Source: Pseudomonadota bacterium
Lineage (GTDB): Bacteria; Pseudomonadota; Gammaproteobacteria; Burkholderiales; Sulfuriferulaceae
NCBI GenBank assembly: GCA_021845925.1
Contig: JAJZUW010000004.1
Coordinates: 189,323-251,960 of the forward strand
DNA length: 62,638 nucleotides
Direction of reading: 5' to 3'
A model generated the notes under the pieces. It did not search any database. It saw nothing but the letters and a program-made list of their open reading frames with translations, and was not told the DNA's origin. The position numbers and the translations under genes are program-made. This document shows positions 19,999-28,154 of the stretch, piece by piece; the first letter of the stretch is position 1; each line of letters starts with the position of its first letter.

Positions 19999-21984
19999 AT
20001 GACTGCCCTGCACATCGAATACCGTCCCATCGACGTCCTGATTCCATACATTCGCAATGCCAGGCAGCATTCCGATGCCCAGGTGGCACAGATCGCCGCC
20101 TCCATCCGGGAGTTCGGCTGGGGTGCTCCGATTCTGATCGACGGGCAAAACAACGTGATCGCCGGTCATGGTCGGCTGCTCGCCGCCCGCAAGCTCGGGC
20201 TGGCCGAAGTTCCGGTCGTGCCAATGACCCACCTCACCGACACCCAGCGCCGTGCGCTGATCCTGGCCGACAACAAGATCGGCGAGAATGCGGCATGGGA
20301 TGAGGAACTGCTGGGACTGGAACTGTCGGAACTCAATGAGTCCGGTTTCGATCTGGAACTGACCGGATTTACCGAAGCCGAATGGGCGGCGCTCATCGAT
20401 GGAGAAGAAACCAGCAAGGGCGGTCTTACCGATGAAGATGCGGTTCCTGAAGTTCAAGAAACGCCCATCTCGCAACCCGGCGATCTGTGGCTGCTGGGCG
20501 AGCACAAGCTACTGTGCGGTGATGCTACCAAGGCCGAGGACTACAAGGTGCTGCTGGGCGATGAACTGGTGGACATGGCCTTCACCGACCCACCCTACAA
20601 TGTCAATTATGCCAACACGGCGAAAGACAAGCTGCGTGGCAAGCATCGCCCGATCCTGAACGATAACCTGGGCGCAGATTTCGGTGCATTCCTGACAGAT
20701 GCCTGCCGGAACATCCTCTCTGTCACCAAGGGCGCGGTCTACATCGCCATGAGTTCTTCCGAACTCGACACCCTGCAGTTCGCATTCCGGTCTGCCGGCG
20801 GAAAGTGGTCGACCTTCATCATCTGGGCCAAGAACACCTTCACGCTCGGCCGCGCCGACTACCAGCGCCAGTACGAGCCGATCCTGTATGGCTGGCGCGA
20901 TGGTGCCGACCACTACTGGTGCGGCGCACGCGACCAGGGTGATGTTTGGCAGATCAAGAAACCGCAAAAGAATGATCTTCATCCTTGCCTATGTCCAGGC
21001 TCAGAGGTGTTAACGGAAAACGGTTGGCGCGTCATTGAATCGTTGGTCGAAGGTGATTGCGTCCTGGCGGCAGACGGTGTGTTCCGTTCAGTGGAACTGG
21101 TGTCGTCTCATTTTATTGAAAAGTGTGTATTCCGGCTTGCTGTTTCGGGTGTTGAGAGTGCAGTCGATGCCACCGGCAACCACCCATTTCTCGTTCTGCG
21201 CGACGGCGAATTAGCGTGGATCGAGGCTTCTCAAATCGTTGTCGGGGACGAAATATGCTCACCAAAAAAGGTTATGTCAGAAACTGGTACGGCGATCGGC
21301 AACGAATGGAACACGACATCGTATGGGAACGGAATTTCGGAGCCGTCCCGGACGGACATTGCGTCCATCATATCGACCACGACAAACAAAACAATCACAT
21401 TTCAAACCTGCAACTTGTCACCCACCTTGAGCACAAGCGGATTCACTCCGGTTGCCACCTCCGCGATGGTGTTTGGTGGAAGCCTTGCGGCGCCTGCGGA
21501 TCACTTAAACCGGTTACTCCAGAACACTGGTATCTCAACGCAAAAGGATGGCCTTATGGATGGGGCTGTCGACCATGCCACGTCAAAAAAGTCGTACAGC
21601 TTCGTTCTGCGAAGCGTAAGCAGCCTCGAGAAAATAAATTACTCGGGGTTGGTGTGGAACTTGTCGGTGAAGGACAGCCCCACCTTTGAAACGCGCATTG
21701 GCATGTCTCATAACACCATGAAGCCTGTCGAACTGGTGGAACGTGCGGTGAGAAACAGCAGCAAGACGCGCGACATCGTGCTCGATCCGTTCGGCGGATC
21801 GGGATCTACGTTGATTGCCTGCGAAAAATCCGGCCGACGAGCGCGCTTGATCGAACTCGATCCGAAGTATGTGGATATAGTTATTCGGCGCTGGCAGGAA
21901 TTCAGCGGACAGGAAGCAAAACGCGCCGGTGACGGCGCGACATTCGTGGATCTTGCGACCTCTGATCAGGCGACGATCCGGTAG
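19999..21984 (+). CDS. ParB-like/N6-adenine DNA methyltransferase with in-frame intein
   Basis: 661 codons. Residues 1-130 are a ParB-like nuclease domain (IDVLIPYIRNARQHSDAQVA, ILIDGQNNVIAGHGRLLAAR). Then comes a beta-order methylase: motif IV TDPPYNVNY near residue 195, the conserved NDLHP/TMKPVEL segment, and the SAM motif DPFGGSGST near the end. The HP|TMKP motif is split by a 243-residue intein (20986-21714); removal gives a normal 418-residue enzyme. Phage ParB-methylases probably protect phage DNA from restriction. The gene's last 19 bases overlap a convergent DUF3489 gene. The zero-frame linker of the intein also covers an HNH gene in the -1 frame. Confidence 0.95.
   Translation: MTALHIEYRPIDVLIPYIRNARQHSDAQVAQIAASIREFGWGAPILIDGQNNVIAGHGRLLAARKLGLAEVPVVPMTHLTDTQRRALILADNKIGENAAWDEELLGLELSELNESGFDLELTGFTEAEWAALIDGEETSKGGLTDEDAVPEVQETPISQPGDLWLLGEHKLLCGDATKAEDYKVLLGDELVDMAFTDPPYNVNYANTAKDKLRGKHRPILNDNLGADFGAFLTDACRNILSVTKGAVYIAMSSSELDTLQFAFRSAGGKWSTFIIWAKNTFTLGRADYQRQYEPILYGWRDGADHYWCGARDQGDVWQIKKPQKNDLHPCLCPGSEVLTENGWRVIESLVEGDCVLAADGVFRSVELVSSHFIEKCVFRLAVSGVESAVDATGNHPFLVLRDGELAWIEASQIVVGDEICSPKKVMSETGTAIGNEWNTTSYGNGISEPSRTDIASIISTTTNKTITFQTCNLSPTLSTSGFTPVATSAMVFGGSLAAPADHLNRLLQNTGISTQKDGLMDGAVDHATSKKSYSFVLRSVSSLEKINYSGLVWNLSVKDSPTFETRIGMSHNTMKPVELVERAVRNSSKTRDIVLDPFGGSGSTLIACEKSGRRARLIELDPKYVDIVIRRWQEFSGQEAKRAGDGATFVDLATSDQATIR
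21255..21689 (+). CDS. HNH endonuclease gene nested in the intein in the -1 frame
   Basis: 144 residues beginning MLTKKGYVRNWYGD, an N-terminus typical of free-standing phage HNH endonucleases. Core motif: DIVWERNFGAVPDGHCVHHI, DHDKQNNHISNLQLVTHLEH and KRIHSG. A zinc ribbon follows: KPCGACG...CRPC. The ATG at 21255 has GGGGA 7 bases upstream. The frame is offset by -1 from the surrounding intein, which remains open throughout. Access could be by internal initiation, or by -1 slippage at A_AAA_AAG (21264-21270), which would add the HNH domain to the N-terminal methylase and intein part. The last residues, after KRKQPRENK, read through the intein's C-terminal coding region. Confidence 0.85.
   Translation: MLTKKGYVRNWYGDRQRMEHDIVWERNFGAVPDGHCVHHIDHDKQNNHISNLQLVTHLEHKRIHSGCHLRDGVWWKPCGACGSLKPVTPEHWYLNAKGWPYGWGCRPCHVKKVVQLRSAKRKQPRENKLLGVGVELVGEGQPHL
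21264..21270 (+). promoter_or_regulatory. Candidate -1 ribosomal frameshift heptamer A_AAA_AAG
   Basis: In the intein frame the codons are CCA AAA AAG GTT, so the heptamer A AAA AAG is in the register required for simultaneous slippage, the same heptamer as in dnaX. A -1 slip continues as GGT TAT GTC, which is exactly the HNH frame (GYVRNWYG). GGGG lies about 17 bases upstream. I see no strong downstream stem. Predicted shifted product: 424 + 139 residues. Confidence 0.5.
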
Positions 21985-23063: not shown

Positions 23064-23450
23064 ATGGCAGTTGCCGCTCCGACTCCGTGTCGTTACCCCG
23101 GATGCGCCGCTCTGCTTGCCACACCGGGATACTGCGACAGGCATCTGCATGTGGTCCGAAGGCAGCAGGACGATCGTCGGGGATCACCCGCAAGTCGTGG
23201 CTACGATTCTCGATGGCGCAAGGCGCGAAGTCATTTTCTGTGTCAGCACCCACTGTGCACCGCGTGTGAACGTCGGGGGCTGGTCACTCCAGCTTCTGTG
23301 GTTGACCATATCGTTCCGCATCGCGGTGATAAACAACTGTTCTGGGATACAACCAACTGGCAGGCGCTTTGCAAGCCCTGTCACGATGCAAAGACTGCTC
23401 GCGAGGATGGCGGCTTCGGTCGTCTGGTCAAGCCCCTTGCCCAACGGTAG
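23064..23450 (+). CDS. HNH nuclease of the packaging module
   Basis: 128 residues, ATG at 23064. N-terminal zinc site (CRYPGCAALLATPGYCDRH), then the HNH core: LCQHPLCTACERRGLVTPAS, VVDHIVPHRGDKQLFWDTTN and WQALCKPCHDAKTARED. This is the terminase-associated HNH family (HK97 gp74-like), needed with TerL for specific cos-type DNA cleavage. Its position just before the small terminase gene fits. The start near an RBS-poor leader leaves the first residues slightly uncertain. Confidence 0.92.
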   Translation: MAVAAPTPCRYPGCAALLATPGYCDRHLHVVRRQQDDRRGSPASRGYDSRWRKARSHFLCQHPLCTACERRGLVTPASVVDHIVPHRGDKQLFWDTTNWQALCKPCHDAKTAREDGGFGRLVKPLAQR

Positions 23451-24042: not shown

Positions 24043-25173
24043 ATGACCGCCTACTACAACGAAAATAATCCCTACTGCGCCCAGTGGCTGAAGAATCTGA
24101 TTGCAGCTGGCCACATTGCACCGGGAGACATTGATGAACGAGACATACGCGATGTCAAACCAGACGAACTTGCCGGATACACGCAATGCCATTTCTTCGC
24201 CGGAATCGGTGTGTGGAGTCACGCCTTGCGCCAATCGGGCTGGCCTGACGACCGGCCAGTGTGGACCGGATCATGTCCTTGCCAGCCTTTCAGCGCGGCA
24301 GGTGCAGGACTTGGGTTTGCTGATGAGCGGCACCTTTGGCCATTCTGGTTCCACCTCATCGGCCAGCTTCGCCCTGCGGTCATCTTTGGTGAGCAGGTTG
24401 AAACATCAATTGGACACGGTTGGCTCGACCTTGTACAAAATGACCTGGAAGGAATCGGTTACGCCTTTGCAGCGGCCGGTATCCCTGCTGCGGGCGTCGG
24501 TGCCCCGCACATCCGGCAACGACTCTGGTTCGTGGCCGACGCTACAGGCCATCGACAGCAGCGGTCAGTATCGCCCGGGACGGTTGAAGAAGGATGGGCA
24601 GCGGAATCCGCAAGCCTTGGGCAGTTACCGGATGGATTTGAAAGACACGGTATTGCTGGCGCACTGGCCCACGCCACAGGCAAGCGACATGACCGGCGGT
24701 GGACAGACGAAGCGGGCCATGGGGCCGACACGCCACGGTTCGAACCTGAAGGATTTTGTGGTACTTGCGGGGTGGCCAACCACCACAGCCTGCGACCACA
24801 AAGGGGGTTATCAGGGCGGACGGATCCGCAATGGGAAATTGAGCACGGACAGGCTGGATCTAGCAACACAACTGGCGGGATGGCAGGCGCCATCGACGGA
24901 CAATTTCAGGAAACGGGGTGGGAGTCGCTCAGACGAGTTGGGCAATCAGGAGATGCTGAAAAACCTGATGCAACCCGCCAGGCTGACCACCCATGGAGAA
25001 ATGCTGACTGGCTCCTCTGCCATGATGGAAAATGGCGGCCAGTTGAATCCGGCACATTCCCGCTGGCTCATGGGGCTTCCGCGCGCGTGGGACGACTGCG
25101 CGCCTATGGCAATGCCATCGTCGCGCAAGTCGCCACGGAACTAATTGCTGCCTACAACGCCGTCCGACCGTGA
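24043..25173 (+). CDS. Phage C5-cytosine DNA methyltransferase (Dcm-like)
   Basis: 376 residues. [11 protein letters not shown] is the SAM-binding motif [13 protein letters not shown] is motif IV with the catalytic Cys, and GEQV replaces the usual ENV of motif [11 protein letters not shown] is motif VIII and [20 protein letters not shown] is motif IX/X. The middle (about 180-300) is the variable target-recognition part. Likely role: shielding phage DNA from host restriction. Almost its full length overlaps another long open frame (24134-25144) on the same strand, and its end overlaps the terL start by GTGA. Confidence 0.9.
24134..25144 (+). CDS. Conserved phage protein overlapping the cytosine methylase gene in the +1 frame
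   Basis: 336 residues from the ATG at 24134, which has GGGAGA 5 bases upstream. The sequence is protein-like rather than a shadow: [64 protein letters not shown], and the ending [20 protein letters not shown] with PSSRKS. From memory of the family, the same motifs (WPTP.ASD, NP.WVEWLMG.P) recur in many phages, also overlapping a Dcm-type gene. Role unknown; co-residence suggests a function linked to methylation. Confidence 0.75.
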
Positions 25174-25811
25174 GAACCCATCATTACACCACCATCGCCC
25201 GCCATTACGCCGAAGCCGTGGTGGCAGGCGACATCCCTGCCTGCCGTTGGGTGAGGCTCGCCTGCCAGCGGCAACTGGACGATCTCGTCAGATTCCGTGG
25301 CAAGGCCAGTCCGTACCGGTTCAACCCGAAGCTCACGGATGGCAAGGGCCGCAGTTTTTACCCCGCCGACAACCTGTGCGCATTCATCGAACGTCTGCCG
25401 CACGTCAAGGGGCCGCTGGCAGGTCAGTCGATCAAACTGGAGCCGTGGCAGGTGTTCATCCTGACGACCGTATTCGGCTGGGTGAAACCGGATGGCCGCC
25501 GGCGCTTTCGACGCAGCTATGTGGAAGTGCCCCGTGGCAATGGCAAGGCGCTCGACATCGAAACGCTGATCCCGACTACCCGGGGATTAAAGCGAATGGC
25601 CGATATCCAACCCGGCGATCAGGTCTTCGATGAACGTGGCCAGCCCTGTACCGTCACGGCGGTCAGCGATATCCTGCGGGGACGTCCTTGCTATCGGGTG
25701 CGTTTCTCCACGGGAGAGACCCTGATCGCCGACGAGGAACACGAGTGGCTGACCTGTGCCAAGGTCGACCAGCCGGGGACGAAACGCCAACGCATCAAGC
25801 CTGCACCTTAA
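25170..25811 (+). CDS. terL: Large terminase N-terminal part plus N-terminal intein domain, ending at an in-frame TAA
   Basis: 213 residues from a GTG at 25170. Residues 1-126 are the start of TerL (FYPADNLCAFIERLPHVKGP, LEPWQVFILTTVFGWVKP, SYVEVPRGNGK). The intein then begins with Ala: ALDIETLIPTTRGLKRMADI, PGDQVFDERGQPCTVTAVSD, and block B TLIADEEHEWLTC. The TAA at 25809-25811 is in the same frame as the downstream part, which restarts after 9 bases. Either a single nonsense change has inactivated packaging or the intein is naturally split here. Confidence 0.85.
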   Translation: MRTHHYTTIARHYAEAVVAGDIPACRWVRLACQRQLDDLVRFRGKASPYRFNPKLTDGKGRSFYPADNLCAFIERLPHVKGPLAGQSIKLEPWQVFILTTVFGWVKPDGRRRFRRSYVEVPRGNGKALDIETLIPTTRGLKRMADIQPGDQVFDERGQPCTVTAVSDILRGRPCYRVRFSTGETLIADEEHEWLTCAKVDQPGTKRQRIKPAP

Positions 25812-26822
25812 GAGATTCCCTTGCGCCGCTACAAGATGCCCACCCTGCACATACACAAAAGCGCAGGGGCACTGGCCTATTGTGTTCGCCTGTATGGACG
25901 CGTCGTGCGTTTGGGCGCCGTGAGCAGGATGACGCTGGAGGAAGCCCAGGCGCGATTTGCACAGTTGACCGAACAGGACCTCAAGGATCACCCATTCGGC
26001 GTGGATACCCTGACGCGCGTGCGCACCACCGGCGAGATTCATCGCACGCAGCGCTACGGCGTGCGTGGTGATACCAATCACACGATTGACGTTGCCGCCG
26101 CACTCGACTTGCCCCCGGTGTCTCTGCCAGTACCGCCTTACACCCTGGGTGCCTGGTTGGGTGACGGCCACAGTGCCAACGCCAATCTGACCAATGCCGA
26201 TATCGATCTGGCCATTGTCGAGCAAATTCGGGCCGAAGGCATCGATGCTCGCCGCCAACAACATTCTGAGGGCCATCACGTCGGCAGATACACGCTGGGC
26301 TCCTGTCGCGACAGCGCCATGGGCAAGCAGCACTGCCTGCAGACCAGGCTCAGGCGACTTGGGGTGCTTGGCAACAAGCATATCCCGATGATCTATCTGC
26401 GATCGTCCAAGGCGCAGCGCCTGGCACTGCTGCGAGGGCTGATGGACACTGACGGCACGGCATCCAAGGCCGGTCAGTGCGTGTTCACCAATACCAATGA
26501 GCGACTCGCCAAAGACGTGTTTCATCTCGTCGCAACACTTGGTTTCAAGCCGACATGGCAGATAAAGCGCGCAAAGCTGTATGGCAAAGACTGTGGCCCA
26601 TCCTATGCCGTCAGCTTTTTTGCGTACCGAGGCGAGGTCGAACCCTTTGGTCTGGCACGCAAACTGAATCGGCTGCGAACTCGGCCAACCCGAGGCTGTC
26701 TGCAAAACTCCCGCGCGATCACCTCGGTCGAGCCTGTGGCCTCCAGGCCGCTCAGGTGCATCGAAGTGGATTCACCATCGCGCCTCTATCTGGCGGGCGA
26801 GTCGTGCATTCCCACGCACAAC
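25548..26822 (+). other. Class 3-like intein in the TerL Walker A motif, interrupted by TAA
   Basis: Inserted between Lys and Ser of RGNGK|S. It starts with Ala rather than Cys or Ser and carries the Trp-Cys-Thr set of class 3 inteins: Trp in block B (EEHEWLT), Cys in block F (RCIEVDSP), Thr in block G (IPTHN), with extein Ser at +1. Length is 425 codons including the stop codon at 25809. Contains a LAGLIDADG endonuclease with two dodecapeptides. Class 3 inteins have been proposed to be of phage origin. Confidence 0.88.
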
Positions 26823-28154
26823 TCCGCGTTGTCCTCGGCAGTCGCCTTGTACATGCTGGCAGCCGACCGTGAAGGCGGTGCCGAGGTGTATTCACTGGCC
26901 ACCACCCGCGACCAGGCGCGCATCGTGTTCGGCGACGCGCAGGCCATGGCGCGGCGCTCGCCGGGATTCCGCTCCCGCTTCGGAGTCGCGGTCGGCGCGC
27001 ACAACCTGCATGTGCTGGCTTCCGGCTCCAAGTTCGAGGCGCTGTCCGCCGAAGGCTCGACGCTGGATGGCTTAAACATCCATTTCGGCTGTGTCGATGA
27101 ACTGCACGCGCACAAGACCCGCACGGTCTACGACGTGGTGGAAACCGGCACCGGCAAACGCGACAACTCGCTCTTGTGGGTCATCACCACCGCCGGCAGC
27201 AACCGCGCCGGCATCTGTTACGAGATCCGCACCTTCGTGAACCGCCTGCTCGAAGGCCTGTTCGTGGACGACTCCCAGTTCGGCATCATATATGGGCTGG
27301 ACGACGCCGACGACTGGGCCAGCGAATCGGCGCTCATCAAGGCCAACCCCAACTGGGGGATTTCTGTCAGACCCGAGGTGCTGCTGCCGCTGCAGGCCAA
27401 GGCCATGCAGATGCCGTCTGCCGCCAACAACTTCAAAACCAAGCATCTGAACGAATGGGTCAACGCCGACACCGCCTGGATGGACATGCGCGCCTGGGAT
27501 GCCTGTGCGGATCCGGAACTCTCCGAAGATGATTTCATCGGTGAGCCGTGCTTCATCGGGCTGGATCTCGCCAGCAAGGTGGACATCGCCGCCAAGGCCA
27601 AGGTCTTCCAGCGCGAGGGCCGGTTTTACGTGTTCCTGAGCTACTACCTGCCCGAAGCCGCGGTGGAGGACGGGCGCAACAGCCAGTATTCCGGCTGGGT
27701 GCGCCGGGGGTTGCTCACCATAACACCCGGCAACGTCACCGACTTCGACCAGATCGAGGCGGAACTGGTGGCGGACGCGAGCCGCTTTCAGATCAAAGAA
27801 GTGCCGTTCGATCCGTTTCAGGCCACACAACTCTCGAGTCATCTCATCGCTGAAGGACTACCGATGGTGGAGATGCGCCCGACGGTGCTCAATTTCTCGG
27901 AGCCGATGAAACAACTGGAAGCGCTGGTGCTGCAAAAGCGTCTCGTGCACGACGGCGACCCGATTCTCGCCTGGATGATTTCCAATGTGGTCTGCCACCG
28001 GGATGCCAAGGACAACATCTATCCGAGGAAAGAACGTGAGGAGAACAAGATCGATGGTGTGGTGGCATTGATCATGGCATTGGGGCGACAGATGGTGCAC
28101 GGCAGCGAATCGAACACGGTGATCGACACCGATTACCGCATCATGGTGATCTGA
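25821..28154 (+). CDS. terL: Intein endonuclease and C-terminal splicing domain plus terminase ATPase/nuclease C-part
   Basis: 777 residues if started at TTG 25821 (AAGAG 9 bases upstream; ATG at 25836 is the alternative). Order: an Arm-domain-like stretch (LHIHKSAGALAYCVRLYGRV, VRLGAVSRMTLEEAQARFAQ), then a LAGLIDADG endonuclease (LGAWLGDGHS and LLRGLMDTDGT). Next is the C-terminal splicing end (RCIEVDSPSRLYLAGE, PTHN) and the TerL extein: SALSSAVALYML completing Walker A, GCVDELHAHKTR Walker B, TTAGSN, and nuclease residues FIGLDLASKVD and HRDAKDNI. Extein total 126 + 443 residues fits TerL. Confidence 0.88.
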   Translation: MRRYKMPTLHIHKSAGALAYCVRLYGRVVRLGAVSRMTLEEAQARFAQLTEQDLKDHPFGVDTLTRVRTTGEIHRTQRYGVRGDTNHTIDVAAALDLPPVSLPVPPYTLGAWLGDGHSANANLTNADIDLAIVEQIRAEGIDARRQQHSEGHHVGRYTLGSCRDSAMGKQHCLQTRLRRLGVLGNKHIPMIYLRSSKAQRLALLRGLMDTDGTASKAGQCVFTNTNERLAKDVFHLVATLGFKPTWQIKRAKLYGKDCGPSYAVSFFAYRGEVEPFGLARKLNRLRTRPTRGCLQNSRAITSVEPVASRPLRCIEVDSPSRLYLAGESCIPTHNSALSSAVALYMLAADREGGAEVYSLATTRDQARIVFGDAQAMARRSPGFRSRFGVAVGAHNLHVLASGSKFEALSAEGSTLDGLNIHFGCVDELHAHKTRTVYDVVETGTGKRDNSLLWVITTAGSNRAGICYEIRTFVNRLLEGLFVDDSQFGIIYGLDDADDWASESALIKANPNWGISVRPEVLLPLQAKAMQMPSAANNFKTKHLNEWVNADTAWMDMRAWDACADPELSEDDFIGEPCFIGLDLASKVDIAAKAKVFQREGRFYVFLSYYLPEAAVEDGRNSQYSGWVRRGLLTITPGNVTDFDQIEAELVADASRFQIKEVPFDPFQATQLSSHLIAEGLPMVEMRPTVLNFSEPMKQLEALVLQKRLVHDGDPILAWMISNVVCHRDAKDNIYPRKEREENKIDGVVALIMALGRQMVHGSESNTVIDTDYRIMVI

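Follow-up and report, generated by a model that had tools for sequence, protein, structure and literature searches.

A prophage DNA methylase gene in the window (the whole stretch of DNA that was analysed, 62,638 nucleotides from a Pseudomonadota bacterium of the Sulfuriferulaceae) carries an intein, and the DNA of the intein linker also encodes a complete HNH endonuclease in the -1 frame. Our preferred reading, to which we give a probability of roughly 0.78, is that a mobile intein has entered a phage DNA methylase and that its homing endonuclease is made as a protein of its own from the overprinted -1 frame. The dual-frame layout itself is real and is no sequencing artefact.

The methylase intein and its second reading frame

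The methylase ORF occupies 19999-21984 on the forward strand and is open throughout, the intein at 20986-21714 included. Its features are listed below; the block labels A, B, F and G were assigned by eye.

19999-20985, + strand: N-extein with ParB-N and the first part of the N6_N4 DNA methylase, ending ...NDLHP (N6_N4_Mtase, phrog_498; ParB_N below its cut-off)
20986-21258, + strand: N-terminal intein splicing half with block A (Cys1, CLCPGSEVL) and block B (TGNHPF) (Pfam; blocks by eye)
21244-21248, + strand: weak Shine-Dalgarno-like GGGGA, 6 nt upstream of the HNH ATG (sequence)
21255-21689, + strand: HNH_3 homing-type endonuclease of 144 aa, in the -1 frame relative to the methylase, ATG 21255-21257, TGA 21687-21689 (ORF, Pfam, structural model)
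21259-21630, + strand: zero-frame intein linker, Ser/Thr-rich, overprinted by the HNH and kept open (Pfam, variable sites, codon simulation)
21264-21270, + strand: heptamer A AAA AAG, in host-frame phase and a candidate site for -1 slippage (sequence)
21631-21714, + strand: C-terminal intein splicing half with block F (LVWNLSVKD) and block G (GMSHN) (Pfam; blocks by eye)
21715-21984, + strand: C-extein TMKPVELVERA..., the second part of the methylase, with Thr as the +1 nucleophile (ORF, Pfam)

Pfam searches of the host frame at E <= 1 matched N6_N4_Mtase (1.9e-24), Intein_splicing (4.3e-6, or 3.8e-7 for the intein alone), ParB_N and Hint_2, the intein, ParB and Hint scores lying below the curated cut-offs, and they matched no endonuclease family. 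In the -1 frame, HNH_3 was matched at 1e-14, above the Pfam cut-off. These results bear out the preliminary description, which had seen a methylase frame open through an intein with blocks A, B, F and G, a zero-frame middle without an endonuclease, and a complete HNH gene in the -1 frame with its own ATG at 21255. The intein has Cys1, the T-x-x-H of TGNH, block F and the terminal HN, followed by Thr at +1; columns C1, T63, H66, H242 and N243 were invariant in 10 of 10 aligned rows, again with Thr at +1. Empty alleles of the same methylase exist, that is, the in-frame insertion is present or absent at a conserved site. The HNH holds the HNH_3 core and the putative zinc-binding cysteines, and its predicted structure had a pLDDT of 86. 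For the host-frame intein, AlphaFold gave no folded model (mean pLDDT 33) from a shallow alignment of 10 rows. A group I or II intron carrying an endonuclease gene was ruled out, as no intron RNA structure matched this stretch of the window: Rfam gave no intron family at E <= 1 between 20500 and 22200, and on five related loci it gave only tRNA and no intron.

Conservation of both frames and probable mobility of the intein

Two scans of viral contigs returned 12 HNH loci and the best 80 of 87 methylase loci, some of them sharing contigs, and a genome scan returned 18 loci. The intein was matched in three of the 399 genomes of the order, the window's own counted, and in four of the 369 genomes of the class-level search, one being the window's own; the other three (L271-L273) had weak N-intein-like matches and no convincing HNH match (best E 0.21). 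A plasmid search with the intein gave no match. Among named phages, the window HNH matched 200 records, each at less than 60% identity, and the HNH of L118 had no match at E 1e-10.

After duplicates were set aside (L094 = L182; L014 = L015 = L016; L098 is 99.6% identical to L097), the clade comprised 11 distinct full-length inteins, namely the window, L094, L013, L014, L017, L018, L095, L096, L097, L098 and L099. Ten of the 11, the window counted, have an open host frame with the HNH in the -1 frame from the same ATG, and in nine of those 10 the HNH is uninterrupted, the exception being L017, in which a stop interrupts it. In the eleventh, L099, a frameshift disrupts both frames, and this copy was excluded from the selection, null-model and identity counts. 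The partial copies L007, L009, L113, L115 and L008/L075 are consistent over the length that they hold. As both frames recur in relatives on independent contigs, the two compensating sequencing errors that had been named as an alternative are ruled out, and the out-of-frame HNH is conserved, which the preliminary description had proposed to check in homologous inteins.

The substitution analysis in both frames, likewise proposed there, revealed that constraint switches along the intein. The codon positions of the host and the HNH are offset, host position 2 being HNH position 3. Among 10 sequences, the proportions of variable columns at host positions 1, 2 and 3 were 0.39, 0.21 and 0.78 in the N-intein, 0.19, 0.61 and 0.30 in the overlap core, and 0.29, 0.29 and 0.58 at block F; the core and the N-intein differed with p 2e-10 when columns were taken as independent. 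Since host position 2 is HNH position 3, the core is constrained as an HNH and the ends are constrained as an intein. No clear amino-acid constraint was seen in the zero-frame linker beyond its openness. In six sets from other families divergence likewise peaked at HNH position 3, in an alignment that was made in the HNH frame and is biased towards it, one set being a subset of another.

Host-frame openness over the HNH exceeds chance. When the HNH protein was fixed and its codons were redrawn from the usage of eight window ORFs, the host frame of the window was open in 0.17% of synonymous redraws, with a mean of 4.3 stops, and those of eight clade sequences were open in 0.17-2.6%. Under a weaker null, in which each gene's own codons were shuffled, the figure was 1.7-7.2%. 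Further, 67 non-redundant nested HNHs had no host-frame stop, against 4.3 stops per 100 codons for the 54 HNH loci classed as other, where openness is part of the definition of a nested locus and two of the 54 are in fact nested, L183 and L008, the latter cut by a contig end. The history first suggested was invasion of a mini-intein by a free-standing HNH gene that happened to leave the frame open; "happened" is too weak for zero stops in 67 nested HNHs.

As to mobility, identities were compared with 67 empty alleles, using at most 300 N-extein and 70 C-extein residues. The exteins of the window are 90% identical to those of the empty allele L019. The intein of L094 is 92% identical to that of the window, but its exteins are only 76% identical; L097 and L098 have near-identical inteins and exteins of 86% identity. 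Across 45 pairs, extein and intein identities correlated at 0.46. The Pro codon before the intein was CCT in 12 of 12 invaded alleles, compared to none of 64 distinct empty alleles (p 3e-14), where the invaded set includes L099 and L009 and the near-identical pairs L014/L009 and L097/L098, and both this marker and the identity statistics ignore the shared ancestry of related copies. CCT is also found in L007, L113 and L115. The marker fits co-conversion, and from these comparisons the window intein looks mobile.

Under our preferred reading, ribosomes in frame 0 would make the methylase-intein precursor, from which the intein would excise itself, as its intact blocks suggest. A second set of ribosomes would start at the internal ATG at 21255 and make the 144-aa HNH nuclease. 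This nuclease would cut intein-free methylase alleles near the HP/TMKP codons, and repair would copy the whole intein in; we infer both steps from the empty alleles and the sequence discordance. It is unlikely that homing has been lost and that the HNH has another role, such as cutting rival phages, and merely shares the DNA. The HNH does have its own start and stop, and HNH proteins play several roles in phages (also PMC11855218), but homing accords with the presence/absence alleles, the CCT marker and the discordance between intein and exteins.

Proposed translation of the nuclease and the wider class of inteins

The HNH ATG is found in every clade relative that reaches this point. The Shine-Dalgarno-like motif is weak in the window and reads GAGGGAG, AGGAG or GGAGG in several relatives. 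An ATG lies close to the conserved start in 61 of the 67 non-redundant nested HNHs. A Shine-Dalgarno-like motif precedes 21 of these 61 ATGs and is missing before the other 40; at upstream background positions its frequency is about 8%. The conserved ATG, these signals and the constraint on the HNH frame together argue for an internal start. Instead, -1 frameshifting at A AAA AAG (21264-21270) would yield a fusion of the methylase N-part, N-intein and HNH, with no free HNH. The heptamer is in the right phase in the window and in L094/L182, and a slip there enters the HNH frame. However, the other full-length relatives lack it and read GCAAAGG, GCAAGGG or ACAAAGG, though all keep the ATG, and the fusion would be without block G. 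Programmed frameshifting was thus rejected as the general mechanism because the heptamer is not conserved; at the heptamers of the window and L094 it is possible, and as the explanation of the locus we think it quite improbable.

Inteins with an HNH in the -1 frame extend beyond this clade. The classifier took 196 loci as input, 72 methylase loci within L019-L092 being omitted, and an HNH was matched at E 1e-6 in 193 of them (not in L011, L012 and L024). Among the matches listed, 67 of the 193 had an intein C-motif with the HNH in the -1 frame, 19 of them in the methylase clade; of the rest, 45 were nested in -1 without the C-motif, six were in-frame inteins and 75 were other, and none had the HNH nested in the remaining frame. 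These counts are redundant and give no prevalence, as the lists behind them are the best 80 of 210 and the best 80 of 161. When collapsed at 0.9 similarity, the four classes held 37, 30, 3 and 54 loci. Pfam was run on 31 of the 37 host frames, the other six being of the window's clade, and all 31 had Hint or intein matches at E <= 0.01, many of them below the curated cut-offs. Such matches were also found in all 14 of the non-methylase loci among the 30 on which Pfam was run, so at least 14 non-redundant loci with a Hint or intein match escaped our home-made C-intein motif. The best such match of L264 falls beyond the HNH region, and in L194, L241 and L267 only Hint families were matched, without the C-terminal part of an intein. 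Pfam found no Hint or intein in any of the 12 methylase insertions L010, L112, L114, L116-L120, L123-L125 and L183. The out-of-frame HNH of these 12 mostly lies, by eye, just before an HPTVKP-like motif, and the methylase of L123 also has an in-frame LAGLIDADG_1.

At Pfam E <= 0.01, the hosts of the 37 were seven methylases, 23 terminases and two portal proteins (L169, L177), with no family match for five (L172, L173, L225, L227, L255). Named examples are Tetrasphaera phage TJE1, Acinetobacter phage Highwayman and Rhodobacteraceae phage LS06-2018-MD07, the records of which annotate only the terminase at the HNH stretch. The HNH of the Klebsiella phage locus L184 was rejected as nested because it overlaps the next gene only at its end. 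In L152 (1541-4559), a terminase has two inteins, seen as two Intein_splicing stretches, and an HNH in -1 overlaps the second.

Two further features of the window were also observed. At 25170-28154, the terminase large subunit of the prophage itself has an intein-like insert with an in-frame LAGLIDADG (LAGLIDADG_3, 1e-7), which begins with Ala after GNGK and ends HN/S; its Ala1, EHEW and the Cys near block F are reminiscent of class 3 inteins. An in-frame TAA at 25809-25811 splits this gene into two ORFs, so that the gene may be either naturally split or broken. Beside the small terminase subunit, at 23064-23450, stands another HNH gene, which is free-standing and terminase-associated in kind (phrog_144, 3e-37).

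Origin of the nuclease, known systems and significance

A tree of 116 HNHs was built, leaving out L008, L009, L099, L101, L113 and L184 by name and two rows by length, with L183 labelled by hand; many forks are weak and the bootstrap is unsettled. The eight methylase-intein HNHs form one clade (100/95), which joins L112, L114 and L183, methylase insertions without a Hint match, at 100/99. As this joins them to Hint-less insertions, the out-of-frame state here probably predates the association with an intein. Rather than the free-standing gene of the preliminary description, what was captured was probably an HNH gene that lay out of frame in a methylase beforehand, and our preferred mechanism would have the HNH taken from a family already hidden in this way. 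The HNHs of terminase and portal inteins interleave with 'free' rows, with 14 label changes, at least seven of them forced by starred branches, where 'free' denotes the class 'other', not all confirmed as free-standing. In L189 and L190, HNH relatives are ORFs of their own beside terminase genes. The terminase and portal inteins with this layout are probably separate acquisitions. We lean towards a widespread phage class of overprinted-endonuclease inteins with several origins, in which free-standing HNH genes aimed at conserved phage genes (terminase, portal and methylase) repeatedly moved into inteins there, always in the -1 frame so far.

That the locus is an in-frame HNH intein with two compensating indels, its HNH an out-of-frame relic, is very improbable: in-frame HNH inteins do exist (L136, L138-L142), but the HNH frame is under constraint, the HNHs closest to it in the tree also lie out of frame, and three in-frame ribonucleotide reductase HNHs (short rows) form a separate clade (100/97).

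Coding arithmetic may partly set the -1 frame. The +2 frame holds 9.6-13.4 stops per 100 HNH codons in every class, compared to 4.3 in the +1 frame of the 54 other loci and none in that of nested ones. Against this, simulation of the window clade showed only a small difference, with 2.6-4.5 expected stops in +1 and 4.6-5.2 in +2. As the full reason it was rejected, with the class counts for it and the simulation against it, since the simulated chance of an open frame in the window is 0.17% for the real frame and 0.31% for the alternative. Often, the HNH stop codon comes from block F of the intein. In 18 of 39 inteins it is found 5 nt inside this motif (further on in the window), where the Tyr/Phe and Asp/Asn codons become TGA or TAA when read in -1.

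Several known arrangements resemble the window in part. L024 is inserted at the same methylase point (HP/C...HN/TMKP), but its endonuclease is an in-frame LAGLIDADG of another family (LAGLIDADG_3, E 0.008, below the cut-off). L136 and L138-L142, of which the host reads by eye as ribonucleotide reductase, also combine an intein and an HNH, but there the HNH is fused in the intein frame. In split inteins, a free-standing endonuclease may lie between the halves ('fractured genes'); they resemble the window in having a separate endonuclease protein beside intein parts and differ in that the host gene is broken there and uninterrupted here. The SPbeta bnrdE intein was rejected as a precedent, as its LAGLIDADG is in frame by eye and no HNH was seen in six frames.

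The layout had first been described as unprecedented, which does not hold. The ShiLan domain (Arsenault, Gosselin, Gogarten 2025, PMC11855218) is an out-of-frame HNH in a phage methylase insertion of patchy distribution, the methylase being uninterrupted and without an intein; besides, many further inteins with a -1 HNH were found here. When the ShiLan DNA was read, its HNH likewise proved to be in -1 relative to the phage DNA methylase, the frame of which is open through the insertion. Unlike the window, the ShiLan insertion has no intein blocks and is thought to stay in the protein, and its HNH has a GTG start with no RBS found (PMC11855218). The ShiLan HNH is 32% identical to that of the window over 68 aa and 33% identical to that of L118 over 85 aa, and by eye the insertion lies at another place in the methylase. 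On these comparisons the ShiLan domain is a distant analogue, and the methylase insert of the window was not filed as a ShiLan domain because Pfam recognises a splicing domain in it. For overlapping reading frames, the ShiLan paper cites Gosselin et al. 2025 (10.1101/2025.01.02.630785) on actinobacteriophage inteins of 'non-canonical architecture', and this preprint may anticipate part of the finding. A phage announcement (PMC12613952) reports an out-of-frame HNH in a methylase. Within the available portions of the literature compared (PMC11855218, PMC12613952, PMC5050341, PMC7765530, PMC3943268, PMC8899391, PMC3443213, PMC3653736), Gosselin 2025 and Gorbalenya 1998 aside, no out-of-frame endonuclease inside an intein was found.

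The usual picture of an intein is of one protein, its endonuclease either in frame or no longer present. In this intein, the second frame of the linker would conceal a selfish nuclease that is made as a product of its own, a route by which a mini-intein could regain mobility with its own fold unchanged. Such loci offer a natural set of long overlapping genes in which each frame has a clear reason. Annotation can miss homing endonucleases in terminase and methylase genes, as in the three named phage records. If the widespread-class reading is true, splicing and homing would be divided between two translation products of one stretch of DNA.
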